Origin: a virus
DNA: 42,401 nt
IMG/VR virus record: IMGVR_UViG_3300013117_000046
Span: 1 to 42,401 of that record
Direction: 5' to 3' (one strand)
Positions 28-27,626 of the stretch are shown here, piece after piece (position 1 is the stretch's first letter; each line of letters opens with the position of its first letter). A model generated the notes under the pieces. That model was not told the origin of the DNA, did no database searches, and was given only the letters and a program-made list of their open reading frames with translations. The position numbers were made by a program, and so were the translations under genes.

Positions 28-52
28 AGATTGTTTAATTTTTTGACGAACT
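28..52. repeat. 25-bp palindrome, copy 1
   Basis: Copy of the dispersed element: left arm AGATTGTTTAA, T-rich loop, right arm ending CGAACT. It starts exactly at the stop codon of the methyltransferase gene (stop at 52-54) and lies before the next minus-strand gene. One arm base departs from consensus (TTGACG instead of TTAACG type). Confidence 0.85.
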
Positions 53-1395
53 TATTTCATCCCATGTACTTTCACAAGGAAACTATCCTTGTAACCTTTT
101 CCAAGTTCAAACCCAACTGCACTCATTCCTAACCCATGTGCAGCTATCAACCCATTACCTGAGCCAAGGAAAGGAATTAGAATTCTTGAACCTGGAAATG
201 CAAAGGTGTCATAGATGTCTGTCATTAGCTCAGTTGGGCGTTCAGTTTCATGTACTTTCTGATTGGATGGAACTGGAGAATACACAAAGTTATTACTCCT
301 TCCTGCCTTATTGAGGGCCGGTCGACCTTTCCAAGCATAAAAGAACATTTCGTAGGTATTTGCCAGGTGCATCTCCGGACGTTTAGACTGTCCACTAGGC
401 TTCGTCCATATACCGCACATGCGAGTAGTTTCAAATCCTGCATTTCTTATCCCTTCATATATAAGATTAAACCAAGGCTCTGGTGCAAACCAACAGATGA
501 GCCAACTATGATCAGCCATGACTCGATAGCATTCTTTGAATACTTCATTCATGCCTCGCCATTCGCCTTCCAAATCTCCATCCATGTAGGAACTCTTAGA
601 TATCTCGTTGTAGTCAGTAATCTGATACTTTGACACTCCATCTATTTTCTTCGCTTTCGCAATATCGATAGAGTATGGAGGATCTATTTCTACCAAGTGC
701 ATGATGCCATCAGGGATTTCCTTCACACCTTTGAAGAAACTATTGACAATGAAGTGCTTGGATAATTCTTGGAGTGTCTCATTAGTACCTTCCGATTCAA
801 GTTTTTGTGCAATAGTGTGCTTGATCAGAGCTTCGTCAACTTGCTTGAGGACTTTGCTTGCATCACTGGCGGTTTTGCAGTTGTCGAATAGGTCAGGGAA
901 TGCTTCACGAGCTTCGGCTCTTTTAATAGACATAGACACAGCAGCTTTGGAAGCATCTCCAATCAACCCTCCTGTGTCTTCAAGAGACCACCCACTCTGG
1001 TCAGGCCCAGGAGCTTTTACACCATGGAGTTGTTGTTGCATCTCGTGGATGTCCAGAGTTAAGGAATCAAACTCCCAGTATTCCATATCTTTACGGTGGA
1101 AGTTTTCAGACTTCTCTATTACTTTCATTTCAAGCTTGGTTAAATCATCGTCATAGATACGGACTGGGATTACATCCACTTTATTCTTCTGAAGGACAAG
1201 AAACCTACGTTCTCCTGCTAAGAGTTTGTAAGTCCCATCTGGATTTTCTTTAACAGCTAACGGTGAAATTAGGCCACTCTCTTTCATATTAGCTTCGAGT
1301 GAATCTAGATCACCCATCTCCTCACGAGCACGGTCTTCTATGACTATTGTATCTAGTCCTATCATGTCAACTTTACCTACCTGTATATCAGACAT
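52..1395 (-). CDS. ParB-like nuclease domain fused to DNA methyltransferase
   Basis: A two-domain protein of about 447 residues. The N-terminal 90 residues look like a ParB/Srx domain: a segment leading to LLAGERR at about 59-64 matches the GxRR-type core of the family. The C-terminal half is an amino-methyltransferase: catalytic motif DPPY at about 238-241 and the AdoMet-binding motif FLGSGNG near 409-415. The order DPPY before FxGxG is that of beta-class N4-cytosine or N6-adenine enzymes. Such ParB-methylase fusions are known in phages and are usually thought to modify phage DNA. The start is taken at ATG 1395, which has GGGAGGT six bases upstream; a GTG at 1401 is in frame but lies inside the ribosome site. 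It overlaps the upstream small gene. Target base and site cannot be read from sequence. Confidence 0.88.
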   Translation of the reverse strand: MSDIQVGKVDMIGLDTIVIEDRAREEMGDLDSLEANMKESGLISPLAVKENPDGTYKLLAGERRFLVLQKNKVDVIPVRIYDDDLTKLEMKVIEKSENFHRKDMEYWEFDSLTLDIHEMQQQLHGVKAPGPDQSGWSLEDTGGLIGDASKAAVSMSIKRAEAREAFPDLFDNCKTASDASKVLKQVDEALIKHTIAQKLESEGTNETLQELSKHFIVNSFFKGVKEIPDGIMHLVEIDPPYSIDIAKAKKIDGVSKYQITDYNEISKSSYMDGDLEGEWRGMNEVFKECYRVMADHSWLICWFAPEPWFNLIYEGIRNAGFETTRMCGIWTKPSGQSKRPEMHLANTYEMFFYAWKGRPALNKAGRSNNFVYSPVPSNQKVHETERPTELMTDIYDTFAFPGSRILIPFLGSGNGLIAAHGLGMSAVGFELGKGYKDSFLVKVHGMK

Positions 1396-1600
1396 CTCCA
1401 CCTCCCTTTAATATTTTTAGTAGTTCAGCAGCCTGGTTTTGATTAACCTGCGGTGCAGCTTTTGCTTTCTTTCTTGTGGTGGATTTAGTTTTCTTTATAG
1501 GTATGCGACGAGATAAGCGAAGGTTGCGGAGAAGTTCAATTGCCTCGTCGTTTGGCATGTCAGTTATTGACTTGTAGTTGAGATCATCTAAGTTGGCCAT
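1388..1600 (-). CDS. Small basic hypothetical protein
   Basis: A 70-residue protein with a Lys/Arg/Thr-rich middle (about residues 30-50) and a short acidic-to-hydrophobic helix at the end (AAELLKILKGG). I do not recognise it. GGAG lies upstream of ATG 1600. Its start overlaps the stop of the 57-residue gene upstream (TAATG), and its end overlaps the methyltransferase start, so the three are probably translationally coupled. The basic middle could bind nucleic acid, but that is only a guess. Confidence 0.7.
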   Translation of the reverse strand: MANLDDLNYKSITDMPNDEAIELLRNLRLSRRIPIKKTKSTTRKKAKAAPQVNQNQAAELLKILKGGGDV

Positions 1601-1773
1601 TAGGAAGTCTCCTTGGGTTCAGGTACAAAGGTTCCAGGGACTCTTCGTTCCTCTAATTGATAGTCCCAATCAAAGTATATCCATCCTCCTGGTACACGAA
1701 GTATATCATGTCCTGATTTTTTATTCCAGATACTACTATTAAGTTCCACGTCTAACATTTCTTGTATTGTCAT
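1600..1773 (-). CDS. 57-residue hypothetical protein
   Basis: A 57-residue frame from ATG 1773 to TAA 1600-1602. It has a core LRVPGGWIYFDWDY and a C-terminal FVPEP segment. Short phage proteins with an RVPGGW(I/L)Y core are familiar to me, but I cannot give a function. The start overlaps the stop of the upstream gene (ATGA) and a GGAGG lies about 10 bases upstream. It fills what would otherwise be a hole between two genes, which supports it. Confidence 0.75.
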   Translation of the reverse strand: MTIQEMLDVELNSSIWNKKSGHDILRVPGGWIYFDWDYQLEERRVPGTFVPEPKETS

Positions 1774-2018
1774 TTCTTCCCCACCTCCTCTGCTTGTTTC
1801 ATACTAGAGATAACATCTCTAGGTTTCAACTTCCCACTCATCATTACTCCAATAGCTACGCCACCAAACTCGTCAATCATGTCAAGGACATCTTCTAGAA
1901 TTCGGCCAAAGATAGCTTTGCGTAGACCGTAGGTGGCAAGGAGTTTGTTAGCTCGCTGTTGTTGTTCTTCGGTAATCTCGAAGCTAAAACGAGGCTTATA
2001 TTCTCCTGTGTCTGGCAT
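1770..2018 (-). CDS. Hypothetical protein, possibly ribbon-helix-helix-like
   Basis: 82 residues. A short strand-like segment (KPRFSFEITEEQQ, about 8-20) is followed by two helices containing an RKAIFGRILEDVLDMID stretch, which resembles the layout of small ribbon-helix-helix proteins. The resemblance is weak and no function is assigned. ATG 2018 has AAGGAG upstream and lies inside the last codons of the upstream epimerase-like gene (23-bp overlap). Confidence 0.7.
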   Translation of the reverse strand: MPDTGEYKPRFSFEITEEQQQRANKLLATYGLRKAIFGRILEDVLDMIDEFGGVAIGVMMSGKLKPRDVISSMKQAEEVGKK

Positions 2019-3216
2019 TTAGTTCTCCTTCTTTCCATTTTGTAGTTGGTAAGATAACTTCTGGGTTGACTCTCTTTTGGTATGGTAGTAGTTCGGTAAG
2101 TAGTTTGGCTATCTCACTTTGAATGTCTGTGGTAGGTACGTAGCCCAAGTCAAGTAGCTTTTGATGTACTGGGTTATAGTGATGTTGACTTGCCTCAATA
2201 CGAGGGTTCTTCATATACTCAATTCCTGTCTGAAGGCCTAGAGTTTTGGCCTCTTCGTGGACTATGTTTGCCAAGCTGTCGATCGAGTATATATTTTCAA
2301 ACTGATTAAAGGCTCTATACTCACCCTCCTCAGGAGGATTTTCAATAGCTATTGTTAGACATTGGATTGAGTCTTTTAATGGCAGGAAGCCACGTACTTG
2401 ACTGCCTTTGCCGTAGACTGTAAGATTATGCTCTATGATAGCTTGAGCACAGAATCTATTGATAGCTGTACCAAAATACTCATCATAATCAAAGCGGGTC
2501 ATTTCCTCTTCATTCTCTGGATCGTTCAGTCCGAAGACAACACCTTGCATGATGTCAGTTGAGCGTAGGCCCCAGACTTTGCAAGCGAAGATGATGTTAT
2601 GAGTGTCATGGACTTTGGATAGATGGTAGAAAGAACCTGCAGAGCGAGGGAAGGGTAGGCCTTGCATGGGACACTCACATTGCATCTCTTCTATATCTTT
2701 TCTCTCATACCACGCTAGACAACCCTGAGGGATTTCTCCTTCAGGTATATCACAATCAGGCGTCCCATACTCACCCATCGTTCCCAATTTAACCAGATGT
2801 GCATCAGGACATTCTTTCTTCATGGCCCAGAGAAGTTGCAAAGTCCCTATTACATTCTCATATTGAGTCTGGACTGCAAATCCTACATCTCTCATAGACC
2901 ACGGAGCAGATGGTTGCTCAGCTAAGTGGACAATAATGTCTGGCTTGAAAGAGGCTAAGATAGAATTGATAAAATTTGGTGGGACTCCTCCAAGTGTAAG
3001 GTTGACTTGGTCGATGTAGTTTTTGTAATTGGCTTTGAGATAGTAACGTTTGGCTGTTACAGGCATGATAGGTGTTAGAGATTCAGTACCTACTTCATTT
3101 ACTCTTCGTCTGCGTGAAAGATCATCTACTCCAAAGACTTCATGGCCTTTCCTTAGTAGATGGATGGTTAATGGATAGCCAATGTAGCCATCGTTTCCTA
3201 GTATTAATATTCTCAT
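1996..3216 (-). CDS. UDP-sulfoquinovose synthase-like NAD-dependent sugar-nucleotide enzyme
   Basis: A 406-residue extended short-chain dehydrogenase/epimerase. The N-terminal NAD motif GNDGYIG (7-13) and the following VDDLSRRR...GTESLTPI match the pattern of plant and bacterial UDP-sulfoquinovose synthases (SQD1/SqdB) as I remember them. So do LAEQPSAPWSM (98-108), KLGTMGEYGTP (143-153), SFYHLSKVHDTHN (195-207), FGTAINRFC and LTVYGKGSQ.RG. The catalytic Thr146, Glu149, Tyr197 and Lys201 (YxxxK) are all present. SQD1 converts UDP-glucose plus sulfite to UDP-sulfoquinovose. The gene lies between the dCMP deaminase (ATGA overlap) and a small gene. A general sugar epimerase is the alternative, but the SQD1-type motifs run through the whole length. 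The C-terminus carries an extra basic tail. Confidence 0.85.
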   Translation of the reverse strand: MRILILGNDGYIGYPLTIHLLRKGHEVFGVDDLSRRRRVNEVGTESLTPIMPVTAKRYYLKANYKNYIDQVNLTLGGVPPNFINSILASFKPDIIVHLAEQPSAPWSMRDVGFAVQTQYENVIGTLQLLWAMKKECPDAHLVKLGTMGEYGTPDCDIPEGEIPQGCLAWYERKDIEEMQCECPMQGLPFPRSAGSFYHLSKVHDTHNIIFACKVWGLRSTDIMQGVVFGLNDPENEEEMTRFDYDEYFGTAINRFCAQAIIEHNLTVYGKGSQVRGFLPLKDSIQCLTIAIENPPEEGEYRAFNQFENIYSIDSLANIVHEEAKTLGLQTGIEYMKNPRIEASQHHYNPVHQKLLDLGYVPTTDIQSEIAKLLTELLPYQKRVNPEVILPTTKWKEGELNARHRRI

Positions 3217-3845
3217 ATCTCAAACTCCCTTATCTTTATAGATGAATTGTTAATTAGAAATTGTGTATGCTTGTCGTATACTTCTGCTTTGTTGATTACT
3301 ATTTCTACAATACCTGCGTTGATTAGAATGCCAAAGCAATTCTGGCATGGAATAACTGAGTTCATGTAAAGAGTTGTACCTTCAACAGCAACTCCTAACC
3401 TTGCAGCATTTGAGATACAGTTCTGCTCGGCATGTTGGGCAGGACATAGCTCCATGTGGGTTCCTGATTCAAATCCCATCAGTCTGCGGGGACAAGTTTT
3501 GGCTACAACTTCAGGTCGTGTCCACTCTCCTCTCATTGTGCCTAGAACACTGTCCTTCATAAATCTCTCATGTCCACAGTGAGGTGTTCCTCGTGGAGGA
3601 CCGTTGTAGCCTGTTGCTACTATCGAATGATCTCGCACGAGGATAGCACCTATGTTGCGGGAGAGGCAGGAAGATTTGGAGGAGATGGTTTTGCAGATGT
3701 CGTGGAAATAGTTGTCCCATCTTGAATTGTCTGTCTTTTTACTAGGGACTGGTGGTATACAATCCCTTCCACATTCAGAACATCTACCCCGTCCATCTAT
3801 TGTTATCAATTTCCCTGGTGACGGTCTACAGTTTTTACAAGTCAT
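3213..3845 (-). CDS. Deoxycytidylate (dCMP) deaminase with N-terminal zinc ribbon
   Basis: About 210 residues. The deaminase fold shows the zinc ligands HAE (about 138-140) and PCQNC (about 166-170), plus GAILVRD and TGYNGPPRG segments typical of ComEB/phage dCMP deaminases, which supply dUMP for dTTP synthesis. An added N-terminal zinc ribbon is visible as CKNC and CSEC within the first 30 residues. The start is taken at ATG 3845 with GGAGG 11 bases upstream; a TTG at 3863 is also in frame but overlaps that ribosome site. The stop overlaps the start of the sulfoquinovose-synthase-like gene (ATGA). A general cytidine deaminase is less likely because the long HAE-to-PCxxC layout fits dCMP deaminases. 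Confidence 0.9.
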   Translation of the reverse strand: MTCKNCRPSPGKLITIDGRGRCSECGRDCIPPVPSKKTDNSRWDNYFHDICKTISSKSSCLSRNIGAILVRDHSIVATGYNGPPRGTPHCGHERFMKDSVLGTMRGEWTRPEVVAKTCPRRLMGFESGTHMELCPAQHAEQNCISNAARLGVAVEGTTLYMNSVIPCQNCFGILINAGIVEIVINKAEVYDKHTQFLINNSSIKIREFEI

Positions 3846-3890
3846 CTCTTGAATTTCCTCCAAGTTTTAGAAATTGCACAATGTTGTATG

Positions 3891-5347: not shown

Positions 5348-5372
5348 AGATTGTTTAAAAATTGAACAAACT
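5348..5372. repeat. 25-bp palindrome, copy 3
   Basis: Left arm AGATTGTTTAA, right arm TTGAACAAACT. Its right end overlaps the stop codon (5371-5373) of the Sak4-like gene and it lies just before the ribosome site of the next minus-strand gene. Confidence 0.88.
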
Positions 5373-6198
5373 AATCAACTTCCAACTTAGGCTTATCGCT
5401 CCAGTCAAGGCCTATTTTCTTAAGCAGACCTTTAATATCAGGAGGTTCAACTGCATCTAGTTTACCATTAGCTTTGAGTCGAGACCTAGCGACATATTCA
5501 CCTAATGAATCAATCAGCATTTCACGCTTAGGCTCACGGCCCTTTCCATCCTGTCCTGATAAGACATAGATTTCATCGAATAGGAGAGGTATAGTAATGA
5601 CTGCCTGGCCGGTGGTGTAGAATCGATACTTGATGTCTTCATAATTGATCCCAGTTTTGGCGTCTACTCGGACCAGCTTTCTGATTTCCCTCAAGTGACC
5701 GGTCAAGATGAAATCACAAGGGATACGCATCAACTTGTGGATATAGTTAACCATGTGAACCTTTTGAGGATTGTAGTCTCGGCGATGCTTTGGTACTCCA
5801 CCTGCATCTTCTTGACCAGCCAGTTGATAATTCATAACTGCAATTCCCCAAGTGGTAGCACTATCAATGCAATAGGTGCCAAACTTCTCAAAGTATCCTA
5901 TCTGCAGACGAATTTCGGTAGCCTTCATCCACGCAGCGAACTTGTCAGGTGAGAAAGGATCATCTGATTCCCACTGAGTATCGGCTACTACATCACCTGA
6001 GGCGATTAGGTCACGAAGACACTTTGTCCCACCTGGATCGAAGGAATCTACATGAACTGGGAAACGTGCACTTCTCAGCAGAAATGTCTTTCCAGCGTTC
6101 GTTTCCCCAGTTACCAATGCTGAGAAGCGCTTTTGTAAAGGGTCACCTTCATAGTATTCTTTTACTTTCTTTAATTCACTTTTATAATCGTAGGGCAT
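5371..6198 (-). CDS. Sak4-like RecA-family ATPase (single-strand annealing/recombination)
   Basis: 275 residues. Walker A GETNAGKT at 31-38 follows a FSALVTGET strand. FPVHVDSFDPGGTKCL and a later TYCIDSATTWG (about 107-117, Walker B-like) follow. The end of the core contains HLRE and IPLLFDEIYVLSG segments. This is the pattern of phage AAA/RecA-like Sak4 proteins, which promote strand annealing together with a single-strand-binding partner, here probably the DUF669-like protein. The start ATG 6198 has AAGGAG upstream and overlaps the small membrane-protein gene. A P-loop packaging or DnaB-like function is less likely given length and neighbours. Confidence 0.82.
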   Translation of the reverse strand: MPYDYKSELKKVKEYYEGDPLQKRFSALVTGETNAGKTFLLRSARFPVHVDSFDPGGTKCLRDLIASGDVVADTQWESDDPFSPDKFAAWMKATEIRLQIGYFEKFGTYCIDSATTWGIAVMNYQLAGQEDAGGVPKHRRDYNPQKVHMVNYIHKLMRIPCDFILTGHLREIRKLVRVDAKTGINYEDIKYRFYTTGQAVITIPLLFDEIYVLSGQDGKGREPKREMLIDSLGEYVARSRLKANGKLDAVEPPDIKGLLKKIGLDWSDKPKLEVD

Positions 6199-17201: not shown

Positions 17202-17373
17202 ACAGATGGTTAGGCCCTTCATAGCAGTCTCATTTGTGTTAGTTACATTGGTCCTGTTTGTGATGGGTAAGATTCCCGCAGAAGCCATTTTACAAACTAC
17301 AGGGATCATAGTTGGCTTCTATTTTGGTGAGCGAGCAGCCCTCAAGAAAACTGACACCACAGAAACTGAATGA
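17185..17373 (+). CDS. Holin-like small membrane protein
   Basis: 62 residues with two hydrophobic segments (about 12-27, FIAVSFVLVTLVLFVM, and about 34-47, AILQTTGIIVGFYFG) linked by a short turn. A charged C-terminus follows. The pattern fits a two-segment holin, which would form lesions in the inner membrane for the nearby peptidase. It overlaps the lipoprotein gene by 17 bases and the next glycosyltransferase gene by ATGA. Small membrane proteins of other function cannot be excluded. Confidence 0.65.
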   Translation: MIRLIKQMVRPFIAVSFVLVTLVLFVMGKIPAEAILQTTGIIVGFYFGERAALKKTDTTETE

Positions 17374-18377
17374 TTCCCAAAGTCTCTGTAATAATATCTA
17401 ACCGCAACGATATTGCGATGCTAGTCGTCACAATTCGTTCTTGTATAGAGGAACTCAGGCCACTTGGCAAAGGCCTCGGTGAGATTATCATAGTTGACAA
17501 TTCCGACCCTGCAGCATATAAACTGCTAGGAAGTGCCTTACCAGTTGGATATTGCAGAGACAAATTACTAAAAGTCTATCGTCAAGACTTTCCATGTCTG
17601 TTTAGTGCTAGAGAAACTGCAGCTGAGAAAGCCTCTGGTGAATACATCTTCTGTGTAGACTCTCATATGTTAATCGGGAGGGATTGCATAGTAGATTTGG
17701 CAAGCTTTATGGATGAACATAGGAAGGATAAATCCTTAGCCTTCGCCCACGCTCCAATCTCCTGGGCTCACCACCATGAAAGATACGCTAAACATGACAG
17801 AGATATAAGTGAGAATGAATTAGGAAATTGGAACATTGCTTATCCTTATAGACGAACCATCACTTGGAAGGGAATGCCTTGGATGTGTCGTCGAGAGTGG
17901 TTTTTAGATCGAGATAAAGGCTTAGGAGGCTACGGAGCCCTTTCAGATCACAAAGTTAGCTGGGGCGGAGGCGACATGCACATTGGAGTCAAGCCCTGGC
18001 TTCTTGGATTTAAAAATTGGGCAGTGCCTACTAACCCTTGCATTCACATAGGGCCTTTTCCTAAAACTGACCAAGGAAAGAATCCTAATGTTACAAAAGT
18101 GTCAAACTTTCGATCTAAAGACAAATATCGAGTTTATGGAGAAAGTGGACAATTCCCTCATACATTTGGTTTCTTAGTTTCCTGTTATATTCTCGGTGGA
18201 GAGTCAATGATGAAGCGGAACAAAGAAGCTATCACAAAACGTTTTGGTAACTTTATAAATGTCGACAAGTGGTGGCAGAAAGCTATGGAAGTTGGTCATA
18301 GTGAAAAACAATGGCTTGATAAACGAAAAGTCATGTCATTTGGAGAACTACTTAAAACGAAGCCTTGGGATAACTAG
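17370..18377 (+). CDS. GT-A fold glycosyltransferase (family 2-like)
   Basis: 335 residues. The N-terminus KVSVIISNRND with later EIIIVDN (about 38-44), an AAEKASGEYIFCVDSHM segment (DSH at about 97-99 in the DxD position), and an acceptor-side region with WKGMPWMCRREWF and a GGGD segment are typical of GT-A enzymes. No membrane segment is seen. It would move a sugar from a nucleotide donor to a glycan, perhaps host surface polysaccharide or a virion protein. It is coupled to the holin-like gene (ATGA) and is followed with no gap by a sulfotransferase gene. Confidence 0.85.
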   Translation: MIPKVSVIISNRNDIAMLVVTIRSCIEELRPLGKGLGEIIIVDNSDPAAYKLLGSALPVGYCRDKLLKVYRQDFPCLFSARETAAEKASGEYIFCVDSHMLIGRDCIVDLASFMDEHRKDKSLAFAHAPISWAHHHERYAKHDRDISENELGNWNIAYPYRRTITWKGMPWMCRREWFLDRDKGLGGYGALSDHKVSWGGGDMHIGVKPWLLGFKNWAVPTNPCIHIGPFPKTDQGKNPNVTKVSNFRSKDKYRVYGESGQFPHTFGFLVSCYILGGESMMKRNKEAITKRFGNFINVDKWWQKAMEVGHSEKQWLDKRKVMSFGELLKTKPWDN

Positions 18378-18968
18378 ATGGCCGTACAGATAGACAGAGC
18401 TATATGCCTTCATATTCCTAAAACAGGAGGTACCTTTGTCAGAAATTACTTCAAGGAAACAGGTATGAGTCACGGAGTTAAGGCATTGGAAGAAAGAGCC
18501 CACATGAACGCTTATCTCCTGCGTGAGACTATAGGTCACACAGAAGATCTAATATTCTGCTTCGTTCGACATCCTTTAACATGGTACAGATCATATTGGA
18601 CAAGTAAGCAGCAAATACCTGATAGAAGAGGCGGACCTCTGGATGAGATAGTCGATGAATCCTGGGAAACATTCATAGAGACAGTGATAAATAAGTATCC
18701 TAGATACCTAGAAGGTTTTTACGAAGGATACACTGAAATCTGCAGATTCATTGGAAAGCAGGAGAACCTCAGAGATAATCTGGACACTGTTCTCAGATTC
18801 CTAAGAATTCCTTACAACAGGGAATACTTGTTCAAGAGAGTCCCTGATAATGTGGTTCCTTCCAAAGTGAAGTACACCATGCTGCAGGCTATGGCTATCA
18901 TGGATCATGAGAAGAATATCATTAAGAAATACAATTACAACTATATACCTACAGAGGCGATAAATTGA
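18378..18968 (+). CDS. PAPS-dependent sulfotransferase
   Basis: 196 residues. LHIPKTGGTF at 11-20 is the 5'-phosphosulfate loop and FVRHPLTWYRS at 62-72 is the 3'-phosphate-binding motif of carbohydrate-type sulfotransferases. A C-terminal helical region (LDTVLRFLRIP) follows. It would transfer sulfate from PAPS to a sugar hydroxyl. The start follows directly on the stop of the glycosyltransferase gene, and the stop overlaps the TTG start of the radical SAM fusion, so the three are made together. The substrate is unknown. Confidence 0.85.
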   Translation: MAVQIDRAICLHIPKTGGTFVRNYFKETGMSHGVKALEERAHMNAYLLRETIGHTEDLIFCFVRHPLTWYRSYWTSKQQIPDRRGGPLDEIVDESWETFIETVINKYPRYLEGFYEGYTEICRFIGKQENLRDNLDTVLRFLRIPYNREYLFKRVPDNVVPSKVKYTMLQAMAIMDHEKNIIKKYNYNYIPTEAIN

Positions 18969-21844
18969 GAACGATAATAGTAGCACTATATCCCTACAAA
19001 GGTCAAGGTCTTGACTCTTGGATAGATCACGGAGCAGGTATGACCTACATTGCAGCTAAGAATGATGACTGTGATGTGGAATTCCTAGATATGAAGTCTT
19101 TGGCTAACGATGCTGAGTTGAAGGAAAAACTTAAGGGTTATGACTTGATAGCTTTCGGACTGAAGAGTTCTTACTATGCCATAGGTATGAAGGTGGTGAA
19201 GTTTGCCAAAGAACAAGGTTCCAAGGTCTTAGTTGGTGGCTATCATGCTACTGCAGCACCTGGCGAACTCCTCTCCAACTCTGACATAGACTACGTCTTC
19301 CACGGGGAAAGTGAACTAACTTTCCCAGAATTTCTCAAAGATCCTTCAAAATTTAAACGATCTATCATAGGCAAAAAGCCACCTAACCTTGACCTTCTTC
19401 CCTTCGTCGACAGAGACATCTACCGTGAGCCACTAGAAAATTGCCTAAACTGGTGGCATGGTGGAAAACTGTCAAAGATGACTACTGTAATGGCAGCTCG
19501 TGGATGTCCTTACAAATGTGCCTTCTGCCAGCCCCTAGAAGACAACCACTTTGGCAAAAAGCTCCGACGTAGAAGTGTTGATAGCATAATAGCTGAACTC
19601 AGACGACTTAAAGAACTCTACCATCCAGACTGTCTAATGATCCATGATGACACTTTCCTCATTCAGCCTAAATGGATAGAGGAGTTCATCGAAAAGTATC
19701 CTGAAATCGGACTTCCATTCTGGGCTGCAGCTCGTGCGGACGGAATCTGTGAGCATCCAGGTTTGGTCAAGAAACTAGTCGATGTGGGTTGGGAACTCAT
19801 TTCCGTAGGCTACGAATCCGGCAGTCAACGAATCCTCGACATTCTAAAGAAAGGTACCACAGTAGAACAAAACTACGAATCTACCAAGATAATCAGATCT
19901 ACCAGAGCCAAAATCTACGCCAACTACATAACTGGATTACCTTGGGAAACTAAATGGGACATCCAGGAAACTGCAAAAATGGCTGACATTATAGCAGCAG
20001 AAATGCCTTCATGGGCCTATTTTACTCCCTATCCGGGCTGTGAACTTGGCGAGGAACTCATCAAAAGAGGTTGGTCATTACTGAACAGAGAAACCTATGA
20101 CCGCTGTCCTTCCGGAGAAAAAGTCAAACATGTTGACTATGACTACATAAAGAAAGTCCGAGGAGGCTTCCGTGAGGAGACTTATCCAGAATTCTGCGAC
20201 ATCATTATTCCCTCTTACAACAACGAACACTATACGATAGGATGTTTAGAGTCTATCAAGAAGAACACTAAACCTGGAACCTATCGGGTTATCTGGGTAG
20301 ATAACGGCTCAGAATTCCCTAAAAAGGTCGACAAAGTAATCTCCGACATGGATCATGTTAGTATTAAACTTCCCACAAATGAAGGCTTTGTAGGAGCTAC
20401 GAATAGAGGCTTCGAAATCTCCAACGCTCCTAATGTTTGTCTCCTGAACAACGACACTGAGGTTCCAAACAGGTGGTTAGAGAAACTAATCACTGTTTTA
20501 CAAGGTTCTGAAGACATGGGAATTGTAGGTCCTTTAACTGGCTACGGAGAAGGCCTGAAGATGGACTCCCATCACAGTCTATCTCTTCACTCAACTCTGC
20601 TTCCGACTGCAGCTACTACCTGGGACCTAGATAAGATTAATTCTAAACTTGAGCTGGGATTCAGTGGCAGAACATACTCGATGTCATTTGTAGGATTCTT
20701 CTGTGGCGTTATCAAAAGGGAAGTGATTGACAAGGTGGGTTATCTGGACACTAACTACAAAATGGGTATGTGGGATGATGTAGATTACAATAGAGCCGCT
20801 CAAGAAGCTGGATACAGGACTGAATTGGTTATAGATACCTGCATCCTACATCATGGGAGGGCTACATTTAAGGAGATTGAGAAGAAAGAAAACTTCAATG
20901 TAAACAAGTTACTAGCACTGAACAAAGGTTACCTTGACACAAAATGGAGAAAAATCTACGCTGACAGAGGACTGCAGCCTGTCGTGGACTTCGACAAAAC
21001 CTTCGTAATCTCTCGAGCAATCTATACTCGTATGGGAGAGAAATCAGCTATAGGTGTATTGACTGAGGACCGACTATCCCTAATGCAAAGATATTTCATA
21101 GATAGCTTAGGCAATCAAACAGATTCAGACTTCACTGTCTACCTTATTGTAGGTAAGTACGAAAATGATGTGACAAAGAGAATTGAAGACTTGAATTGGG
21201 ACAAGGTCAATGTGCAGTTCATCTACACTGATGGTGATTTGTCAGAATGGAGAAATACTGTACTAAGAACAGAGAATTGGGGAAGAGAACAAGACGAAGG
21301 TTCTCCAGAATCTATCGTACGTAAGTACGGCCATCCCCAAGCTAACATCATGGCCAGACTAGACACAGATGATTGGGTAGCTCCTGGATGGATAGCTCAC
21401 ATGAAACATATGGCAGTGACTAAGCCAGAATCTCACTTCCTCATTAATTATCAAGTCACTGGCCAAGGTTTAGACGGTCGTCTATATCAATTTTCTATGT
21501 CTCACAATCATGGCAGGACAAGCCCATTCATAGCCTTGGTACAAAAGAAACCACCTCGAATTAGTCCCTATATGGACGCCCACCTGAAGATGGGTACTAA
21601 GTTTTCGACAGTTTACACCGTACCTCCTTTGTACACCTTCATGGTTGTTCATGAAGGTAATAGAAGTAACAGGTTCTATCCTTTAGACATATACTTTGAA
21701 GATGTGGAACTTGATAAGGTAGTTAAAGAGTTGAAAGTCCCTAAGAGGAAAAAGTCTAAGCGTAGGGTAGTAGCATCTACTACCAAAGGATCAGATTGGC
21801 GAGCTAGGATTGCCCAAGGTGAGGCAAGAAATGAGACCGTTTAA
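18965..21844 (+). CDS. Radical SAM + glycosyltransferase + rhamnosyltransferase-like three-module fusion
   Basis: 959 residues from a TTG start (GAGG seven bases upstream) that overlaps the sulfotransferase stop. Residues about 1-130 look like the Rossmann-type B12-binding domain seen before radical SAM cores, with GGYHATAAP, but without the DxHxxG cobalamin motif. ARGCPYKCAFC gives the 4Fe-4S cysteines 181, 185 and 188, and the barrel runs to about 370. A family 2 glycosyltransferase follows from about 410 (CDIIIPSYNN, IWVDNGS, LLNNDTEVP). From about 680 a third module (AIYTRMGEKSA...TEDRLSLMQRYFIDSL, IMARLDTDDW near 795) resembles putative rhamnosyltransferases. I know no characterised protein with this order. 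It may modify and transfer sugars on a surface glycan. Two palindrome copies lie in it. Confidence 0.88.
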   Translation: MRTIIVALYPYKGQGLDSWIDHGAGMTYIAAKNDDCDVEFLDMKSLANDAELKEKLKGYDLIAFGLKSSYYAIGMKVVKFAKEQGSKVLVGGYHATAAPGELLSNSDIDYVFHGESELTFPEFLKDPSKFKRSIIGKKPPNLDLLPFVDRDIYREPLENCLNWWHGGKLSKMTTVMAARGCPYKCAFCQPLEDNHFGKKLRRRSVDSIIAELRRLKELYHPDCLMIHDDTFLIQPKWIEEFIEKYPEIGLPFWAAARADGICEHPGLVKKLVDVGWELISVGYESGSQRILDILKKGTTVEQNYESTKIIRSTRAKIYANYITGLPWETKWDIQETAKMADIIAAEMPSWAYFTPYPGCELGEELIKRGWSLLNRETYDRCPSGEKVKHVDYDYIKKVRGGFREETYPEFCDIIIPSYNNEHYTIGCLESIKKNTKPGTYRVIWVDNGSEFPKKVDKVISDMDHVSIKLPTNEGFVGATNRGFEISNAPNVCLLNNDTEVPNRWLEKLITVLQGSEDMGIVGPLTGYGEGLKMDSHHSLSLHSTLLPTAATTWDLDKINSKLELGFSGRTYSMSFVGFFCGVIKREVIDKVGYLDTNYKMGMWDDVDYNRAAQEAGYRTELVIDTCILHHGRATFKEIEKKENFNVNKLLALNKGYLDTKWRKIYADRGLQPVVDFDKTFVISRAIYTRMGEKSAIGVLTEDRLSLMQRYFIDSLGNQTDSDFTVYLIVGKYENDVTKRIEDLNWDKVNVQFIYTDGDLSEWRNTVLRTENWGREQDEGSPESIVRKYGHPQANIMARLDTDDWVAPGWIAHMKHMAVTKPESHFLINYQVTGQGLDGRLYQFSMSHNHGRTSPFIALVQKKPPRISPYMDAHLKMGTKFSTVYTVPPLYTFMVVHEGNRSNRFYPLDIYFEDVELDKVVKELKVPKRKKSKRRVVASTTKGSDWRARIAQGEARNETV
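19339..19363. repeat. 25-bp palindrome, copy 15 (inside the radical SAM gene)
   Basis: Left arm AGATCCTTCAA, right arm TTAAACGATCT, so both ends are the A half-site. It is coding (DPSKFKRS) and has more arm differences than other copies, so chance similarity cannot be excluded. Confidence 0.55.
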
Positions 21845-26084: not shown

Positions 26085-27626
26085 ATGGACAAAGAACTTG
26101 AACAAATACTAACTCAATGTAGCATTTCAACAAGAGCTACTGCGAAGACTTTCTTCCCTGAGAGGTTTAACTTACCTTTTGCTGAATCAGTTCATGGACC
26201 TATCTTTGATCTCATAGATGGACCTTCGCAAAAGGTAGCTATTGCAGCACCTCGTGGATGGGGAAAGACAAGTCTTGTGGCTCTTGCATTAATGGCCAGG
26301 TGGATTCTATTCCGTCATACAGGGTTCATCTGTTACATTAATAAGAGTCATGATGCTGCATCGTTACAGACTGAGAACCTACGCCGTGAGCTAGTTACCA
26401 ATAGAGAGATCAGAGCTTTTTTTGGAGACTTTAAACAACGAGATGTTAAGAATTCTGAATTCGATGAAGTATTTAGCAAAAAAGCCTGGGTCGCTTACGA
26501 TACCCTTGTATGGCCCCGAGGAGCTGGACAACAGGTTCGTGGAGTGCTATTCAAGAACGATCGACCTGGGCTCATTGTAATAGATGACTTAGAAGACCCT
26601 GATAAAATAGAAAATGATGATATTCGTAAGGGATGGTTTGAGTGGCTTTATGCAGATGTAATTAAAGCTATTCCACGAATAGGTAAGCAAGTTGAGACTT
26701 GGAAGATAGTGTATATTGACACCTTAAAACATGAAGACTCAGTACTTCAAAAACTTCTTGACTCATCTGAGTGGGACTCAGTTCGTCTCGAAGCTTGTGA
26801 TGATAACTTTGAATCAACAGCTCCTCATTTTATGTCTAATAAAGATATTCAGAAGGAATGGCAAGATCATGTAGATGCGGGACAAACTGATGTATTCTTT
26901 CGTGAGTTGCGTAACTTGCCTATTTCGACCAAAGATTCGGCATTTCAACAGAGTTATTTTAGATATTACAATCTACCTCCTGAACGTCCTGCAACTGAGA
27001 ATGATCTTAAAAAACTTGATGTTGAAGTTCAACAAGACAAGAATATTGAAACTGTTGTCATTTTAGATCCTGCAAAAACTGTCAAGATTCACTCTGCTGA
27101 AAGTGCCATCTTAGGAATCGGAGTTGATCTTGCCAGTGCTAAACTTTACTTTAGAGATGCTATTTCAGAAAAAATGTATCCTGATGAAATCTACGATGCC
27201 CTCTTCAGCATGGGTCAGATGTTAGGAGCAAAAGTACTAGGGATTGAAGAAACTTCCCTCAATGAGTTTATCAAGCAGCCTATTAAAAATGAGATGTTTC
27301 GCCGAGGATCGTTTTTTGAACTTGTTTGGTTAAAGCCTAGAGGAGGAGAGAAGAAGGCACTTAGAATAAAAGAACTTGTTCCATACTATAGAGGAGGCTA
27401 CATCTATCACAATGCTTCCTGTGCCGTTATTAAGAAACTAGAACAACAACTTCTAATGTTCCCTCGTTCAAAACTTTGGGACTTAATGGATTGTGCAGCT
27501 TACATAATACAGATGTTGGAACTAGGTGAAAGGTACTTTTCACCGTCAGAAAATCCAGAAGATGTTGAAGCTGAGTATAAAGACCTTGATTATGATAAAC
27601 CTGTTGAGGACTGGAGGTTTGTATGA
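26085..27626 (+). CDS. terL: Terminase large subunit
   Basis: 513 residues. Walker A-like APRGWGKTS at 55-63, Walker B LIVIDDLED at about 164-172, and a C-terminal nuclease with VVILDPAKT (about 325), a GIEE segment and a final DLMDCAAYIIQ (about 466) with acidic residues for metal binding. This is the motor-nuclease that cuts and packages DNA through the portal. It follows the spike gene after two bases, and its stop overlaps the next small gene (ATGA). It is distant from the small subunit, which is unusual. Confidence 0.93.
   Translation: MDKELEQILTQCSISTRATAKTFFPERFNLPFAESVHGPIFDLIDGPSQKVAIAAPRGWGKTSLVALALMARWILFRHTGFICYINKSHDAASLQTENLRRELVTNREIRAFFGDFKQRDVKNSEFDEVFSKKAWVAYDTLVWPRGAGQQVRGVLFKNDRPGLIVIDDLEDPDKIENDDIRKGWFEWLYADVIKAIPRIGKQVETWKIVYIDTLKHEDSVLQKLLDSSEWDSVRLEACDDNFESTAPHFMSNKDIQKEWQDHVDAGQTDVFFRELRNLPISTKDSAFQQSYFRYYNLPPERPATENDLKKLDVEVQQDKNIETVVILDPAKTVKIHSAESAILGIGVDLASAKLYFRDAISEKMYPDEIYDALFSMGQMLGAKVLGIEETSLNEFIKQPIKNEMFRRGSFFELVWLKPRGGEKKALRIKELVPYYRGGYIYHNASCAVIKKLEQQLLMFPRSKLWDLMDCAAYIIQMLELGERYFSPSENPEDVEAEYKDLDYDKPVEDWRFV

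Follow-up and report, generated by a model that had tools for sequence, protein, structure and literature searches.

A UDP-sulfoquinovose synthase-like gene as apparent cargo in the replication cassette of a lineage of uncultured bacterial viruses, and its co-occurrence with a glycosyltransferase

The window, meaning the whole stretch of DNA analysed here, is a 42,401-base IMG/VR virus record with SU10-type portal, major capsid and terminase genes, in which no terminal repeat of at least 15 bases was seen. Its replication cassette, encoded on the minus strand, contains a gene resembling SQD1, the UDP-sulfoquinovose synthase of Arabidopsis, among the following features:

52-1401, minus strand: ParB-like domain fused to an N6/N4 DNA methylase, a member of the cassette
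1770-2018, minus strand: 82-aa gene with no assigned function, directly downstream of the SQD1-like gene ("plus1")
1996-3216, minus strand: SQD1-like gene (UDP-sulfoquinovose synthase family), 406 aa, ATG start, proline at SQD1 position 101
3213-3863, minus strand: dCMP-deaminase-like gene, directly upstream of the SQD1-like gene (PF00383, 1.7e-19; phrog_174, 4.5e-29)
5371-6198, minus strand: Sak4-like ATPase of the replication cassette (phrog_124, 4.9e-11)

The SQD1-like gene is confirmed as real. Its open reading frame has no internal stop, its start ATG overlaps the stop of the dCMP-deaminase-like gene by 4 nt (ATGA), and its 3' end overlaps the small gene at 1770-2018. It is under purifying selection in close viral relatives, with dN/dS values of 0.064-0.128 (16 of the 17 compared pairs, those that differ; dS is saturated in several pairs). 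A chimeric contig including host DNA was rejected: relatives share the cassette, and host DNA is an unlikely source given the SU10-type portal, the capsid and the terminase on the same 42.4-kb record.

Judged by sequence match, predicted fold and phylogeny, the phage gene belongs to the SQD1/SqdB/Agl3 family and not to the ordinary epimerases. Among solved structures, SQD1 (PDB 1qrr, 1i24) gives the best sequence match (phmmer, 5.5e-105, the next match being at 6.6e-09), which spans residues 2-396 of the 406 in the phage protein, with KLGTMGEYGTP at residues 143-153 and GSFYHLSKVHD at residues 194-204; this bears out the full-length SQD1/SqdB pattern with both motifs described in the initial annotation. 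The predicted structure (pLDDT 85.3, built on 26 aligned sequences) likewise retrieves 1qrr as the top fold (6.5e-48, TM 0.89/0.92, 45% identity), followed by a UDP-glucose 4-epimerase (5.6e-21, TM 0.64/0.82). Against the NCBIfam model for UDP-sulfoquinovose synthase (NF041015), the protein scores 468.8 bits, below the cut-off of 575, but a cyanobacterial protein with arginine at position 101 (L150:5012-6151) also falls short, at 475.3, and the cut-off therefore does not exclude the phage protein.

In a rooted tree of 60 rows, the family formed by SQD1, the archaeal proteins and the viral proteins is split from two ordinary epimerases with a support of 98/99, the root consisting of two long outgroup branches (these two epimerase rows only). 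The gene thus falls with the SQD1 family rather than among ordinary epimerases, the placement against which the initial annotation had proposed to check it. An ordinary nucleotide-sugar epimerase of the GalE type is rejected by the sequence match, the fold match and the rooted tree alike. Within the family, the fork setting the archaeal group apart is supported at 81/81. SQD1 is nested within the rows with proline at position 101 (Pro-type), and the archaeal rows with arginine (Arg-type, Agl3-like) are basal to these, so that the phage group has an Arg-type group on either side.

The residue comparison relies on 80 viral contigs plus the window protein (81 rows). Met146, Gly147, Glu148, Tyr149, Ser180, Tyr182, His183 and Lys186 (SQD1 numbering) are invariant in all 81 rows, and position 145 is threonine in 71 and serine in 10. 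Position 101, which is residue 102 of the window protein, is proline in every one of these rows, the window included; among 80 close cellular relatives it is proline in 70, arginine in nine (cyanobacteria among them) and alanine in one, whereas SQD1 and nearly all archaeal Agl3-like rows shown carry arginine. In Agl3 of Sulfolobus acidocaldarius, replacing the corresponding arginine (in HFAEQRSAP) by alanine gave an inactive enzyme, according to the accessible part of the report (PMC4388408). In this alignment, every catalytic residue that can be placed is kept except the Agl3-essential arginine. The catalytic residues announced in the initial annotation are therefore present as regards Thr/Ser145, Tyr182, Lys186 and the MGEY motif, but not every mutation-tested residue is kept, because that arginine is proline in the phage protein.

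In IMG/VR, a profile scan detected an encoded SQD1-like relative on 118 contigs, the best 80 of which, together with the window, constitute the viral rows analysed; a tblastn search of 50,697 named phage records found none. Sixty of the 81 viral rows form a single virus-only group (SH-aLRT 96). In the rooted 60-row tree, the window protein lies in a virus-only clade at 100/98, the other viral rows being intermixed with cellular ones. On this sampling, the gene is a trait of a lineage of uncultured bacterial viruses.

Some relatives show unusual architectures. One (L006:3859-4857) has a 333-aa in-frame, intein-like insert, beginning with cysteine and ending with asparagine followed by threonine, within the active-site motif (KLGTMGEYG|TP). 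The insert matches LAGLIDADG_3 at 2.3e-07 and a solved intein weakly (E 0.069), its block motifs having been judged by eye; no paper pairing UDP-sulfoquinovose with an intein was found in the open-licence PMC literature. In two others (L078:7284-9176 and L135:2920-7179), the SQD1-like domain ends longer open reading frames (631 and 1420 aa), which are possible fusions.

The genomic setting agrees with the SQD1-type gene in a DNA-metabolism arm that was initially proposed. Across 59 viral-clade loci, the neighbours include the Sak4-like ATPase (51 loci), a 140-aa gene (50), the downstream 82-aa gene (42), the deaminase (41), a PD-(D/E)XK nuclease (39), the ParB-methylase fusion (37), a UDG-PolA polymerase (32) and a primase (26), all of these counts being lower bounds because some of the loci are short contigs. 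In one cassette member (L032:11027-13540), a family A DNA polymerase is joined to a uracil-DNA glycosylase domain. A scan with Sak4 returned 80 loci, 42 of which have at least 6 kb downstream; the SQD1-like gene is present in 19 of these and absent from 23. The deaminase is retained in 19 of the 23 loci lacking the gene, and in 13 of those 19 the next gene follows within 39 bp. On a cassette tree of 53 rows, 10 changes of state are counted for the gene, and supported branches force at least six of them. Such presence or absence at one site, with repeated changes of state, points to cargo at a fixed site and not to a core replication gene: as read from these loci, the SQD1-like gene is removable cargo in the replication cassette, and the site is empty in many sister viruses. 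In some relatives, the slot is held by other small genes (L241:3522-4121 and L266:12515-12976, whose reading frames look by eye like a methyltransferase and an HNH protein).

A second sugar-related locus lies in the terminase region of the window:

17370-18377, plus strand: family-2 glycosyltransferase, 335 aa, between the small and large terminase genes (PF00535, 4.5e-11)
18965-21844, plus strand: 959-aa fusion protein with B12-binding, radical SAM and glycosyltransferase domains, neighbour of the 335-aa glycosyltransferase
26085-27626, plus strand: large terminase, used as lineage marker (phrog_38, 1.2e-57)

Variable sugar and tail genes lie near the 335-aa glycosyltransferase, which had no match among named phages and whose predicted structure (pLDDT 51.5) was too poor for a fold search. 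The 959-aa fusion is not tied to the SQD1-like gene, relatives of it being also found in records lacking that gene (L399, L405). The reading frame at 18378-18968 was considered as a sulfotransferase (IPKTGGT and FVRHP by eye), but this is not claimed because PF00685 (Sulfotransfer_1) is matched only at E 0.058; no useful solved-structure match was obtained either.

In an initial tally, the 335-aa glycosyltransferase was found in 19 of 22 records with the SQD1-like gene versus one of 13 without it; the 13 showed no SQD1-like gene at any other place, and the three exceptions among the 22 lack the terminase region. Where both sites are visible, the glycosyltransferase is present in 19/19 records with the gene versus 2/10 without it (Fisher 1.05e-5, the records being related). 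The two exceptions, G232 and G239, lack the SQD1-like gene yet keep the glycosyltransferase, and the SQD1 site of G239 is empty. These counts drop G234, G236 and G238, which have no terminase match, and count G227 and G235, which look identical in the cassette tree, once. Also left out are G241-G245 (neither gene; cassette unchecked) and G240, in which the glycosyltransferase is present but 32 kb of sequence show no SQD1-like gene (cassette unchecked), and whose inclusion would bring the records lacking the gene to 3/11. A terminase scan for more complete genomes returned 80 loci with few new long records. After correction for kinship, four supported independent pairs are available, of which 3.3 agree and none is opposed (p 0.25, in a comparison that cannot reach 0.05), and the co-occurrence is only suggestive. 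The idea, raised in the initial annotation, that the enzyme might feed phage glycosyltransferases has thereby gained a plausible partner through gene co-occurrence, at that suggestive strength.

The nearest named kin is Desulfofustis phage LS06-2018-MD01 (OP947158; terminase 46%, capsid 51%), in which six cassette genes are matched; none of the SQD1-like gene, the 335-aa glycosyltransferase and the deaminase matches anything there. The host of that phage was assigned through CRISPR spacers, as given in the accessible part of its description (PMC10370329). As a pointer to the host of the present virus, this kinship is a weak hint. Desulfofustis-type hosts produce sulfite. When 57 genomes from the phylum drawn around G003 were searched with the terminase, in a run without a positive control, nothing was matched.

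Compared with known systems, the phage protein shares with SQD1 a full-length match, the catalytic T-Y-K residues and the MGEYGTP motif, but differs by Arg101 to Pro, Phe97 to Leu and Asp267 to Pro, and the plant enzyme serves sulfolipid. Agl3, represented in the alignment by the archaeal Arg-type rows, belongs to the same family, shares all but one of its mutation-essential residues with the phage protein (arginine in HFAEQRSAP versus proline) and serves the S-layer glycan and not lipid, according to the available portion of PMC4388408. The initial annotation knew of no phage version, but a Mu-like virus from the Cariaco Basin with a putative UDP-sulfoquinovose synthase had been reported in 2020 (PMC7785012). 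That report, compared here by description only, concerns one virus whose SQD1-type gene is proposed to act on host N-glycosylation, and its available text reports no lineage, cassette or partner glycosyltransferase. It is the sole virus report found in the open-licence PMC literature, as far as its accessible texts go, and no description of a phage system combining an SQD1-like enzyme with a glycosyltransferase was found there; in the accessible part of another phage paper (PMC11806900), sulfoquinovose appears only in a reference.

The explanation that we prefer, and hold tentatively, is that the gene encodes a UDP-sulfoquinovose-synthase-type enzyme making a nucleotide sugar that is used via the phage's own 335-aa glycosyltransferase. 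UDP-glucose, the presumed substrate, would be oxidized at C4 in an NAD-dependent manner, loss of water would then give a 5,6-ene, and a nucleophile, most likely sulfite, would be added at C6. This nucleotide sugar would be made from the cargo slot of the phage replication operon, and the glycosyltransferase of the terminase/tail-fibre region would use it, probably to decorate either a protein of the virion or the surface of the host. The wider proposal is that of a widespread phage lineage with a two-gene sulfoglycan system, in which a UDP-sulfoquinovose synthase, probably fed by the sulfite of a sulfur-respiring host (sulfate-reducing or otherwise sulfur-cycling), and a glycosyltransferase would equip the virion, or the surface of the infected cell, with a sulfonated sugar; taken as a whole, it is speculative and rather unlikely.

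The main competitor, somewhat improbable but to be taken seriously, holds that the proline-101 subfamily, the phage enzyme included, keeps the dehydration of SQD1 and then either adds an alternative nucleophile or goes no further than the 5,6-ene or 4-keto sugar, which would supply a different nucleotide sugar to the same glycosyltransferase. The distribution of proline at position 101 (81/81 viral and 70/80 close cellular rows, versus arginine in SQD1, 9/80 cellular and nearly all archaeal Agl3-like rows shown) argues for it, as do the SqdX-like genes (E < 1e-20) found near four of nine Arg-type versus none of 70 Pro-type cellular genes, and the formation of the 5,6-ene by Agl3 without sulfite, as described in the accessible parts of PMC4388408 and PMC8987622. 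Against this, the remaining catalytic residues are all common to both types, the tree places the Pro type between two groups of the Arg type, two Pro-type cellular proteins score above the NF041015 cut-off, and at looser clustering (1e-5) a GT4 relative appears near three Pro-type loci.

The other alternatives are less probable still. That the plant SQD1 product is the donor of the SQDG head group is established, and speaks for a phage enzyme that would alter host sulfolipid (SQDG) via host SqdX/SqdD-like enzymes, in line with the membrane-lipid rewiring once suggested for this gene. Such a role is not supported and appears very unlikely: no SqdX-like gene is found in the window (best E 1.2) or in the searched viral loci and flanks, and for the Pro type, to which the phage enzyme belongs, 70/70 cellular loci have no adjacent SqdX-like gene at E < 1e-20. 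The constant place in a conserved replication cassette and the 4-nt overlap with the deaminase gene would suit a sugar nucleotide serving phage DNA modification or nucleotide metabolism, but the gene is dispensable, being absent from 23/42 cassette loci (with tight closure in 13/19 of those keeping the deaminase), it varies with a terminase-region gene, and the scanned window proteins (a subset of the window's reading frames) included none recognised as base-hydroxylating, all of which leaves this option with a low probability. Gain and loss at one site could also reflect an accessory host gene acquired by chance, with no phage function; a dN/dS of about 0.1, a diverse virus-only clade with a conserved site, and the intein-like insert that interrupts one relative's active-site motif in frame make this the least credible of the explanations.

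Many bacteria and some archaea have proteins with proline at position 101, and these may be called UDP-sulfoquinovose synthase by model alone. If the phage enzyme makes UDP-sulfoquinovose, the role of this large branch of the SQD1 family would be settled too, and sulfonated sugars would be a product not only of plants, cyanobacteria and some archaea but also of phages, which would have a dedicated transferase. It would then offer a testable case of a phage converting a host sulfur intermediate into its own surface chemistry.
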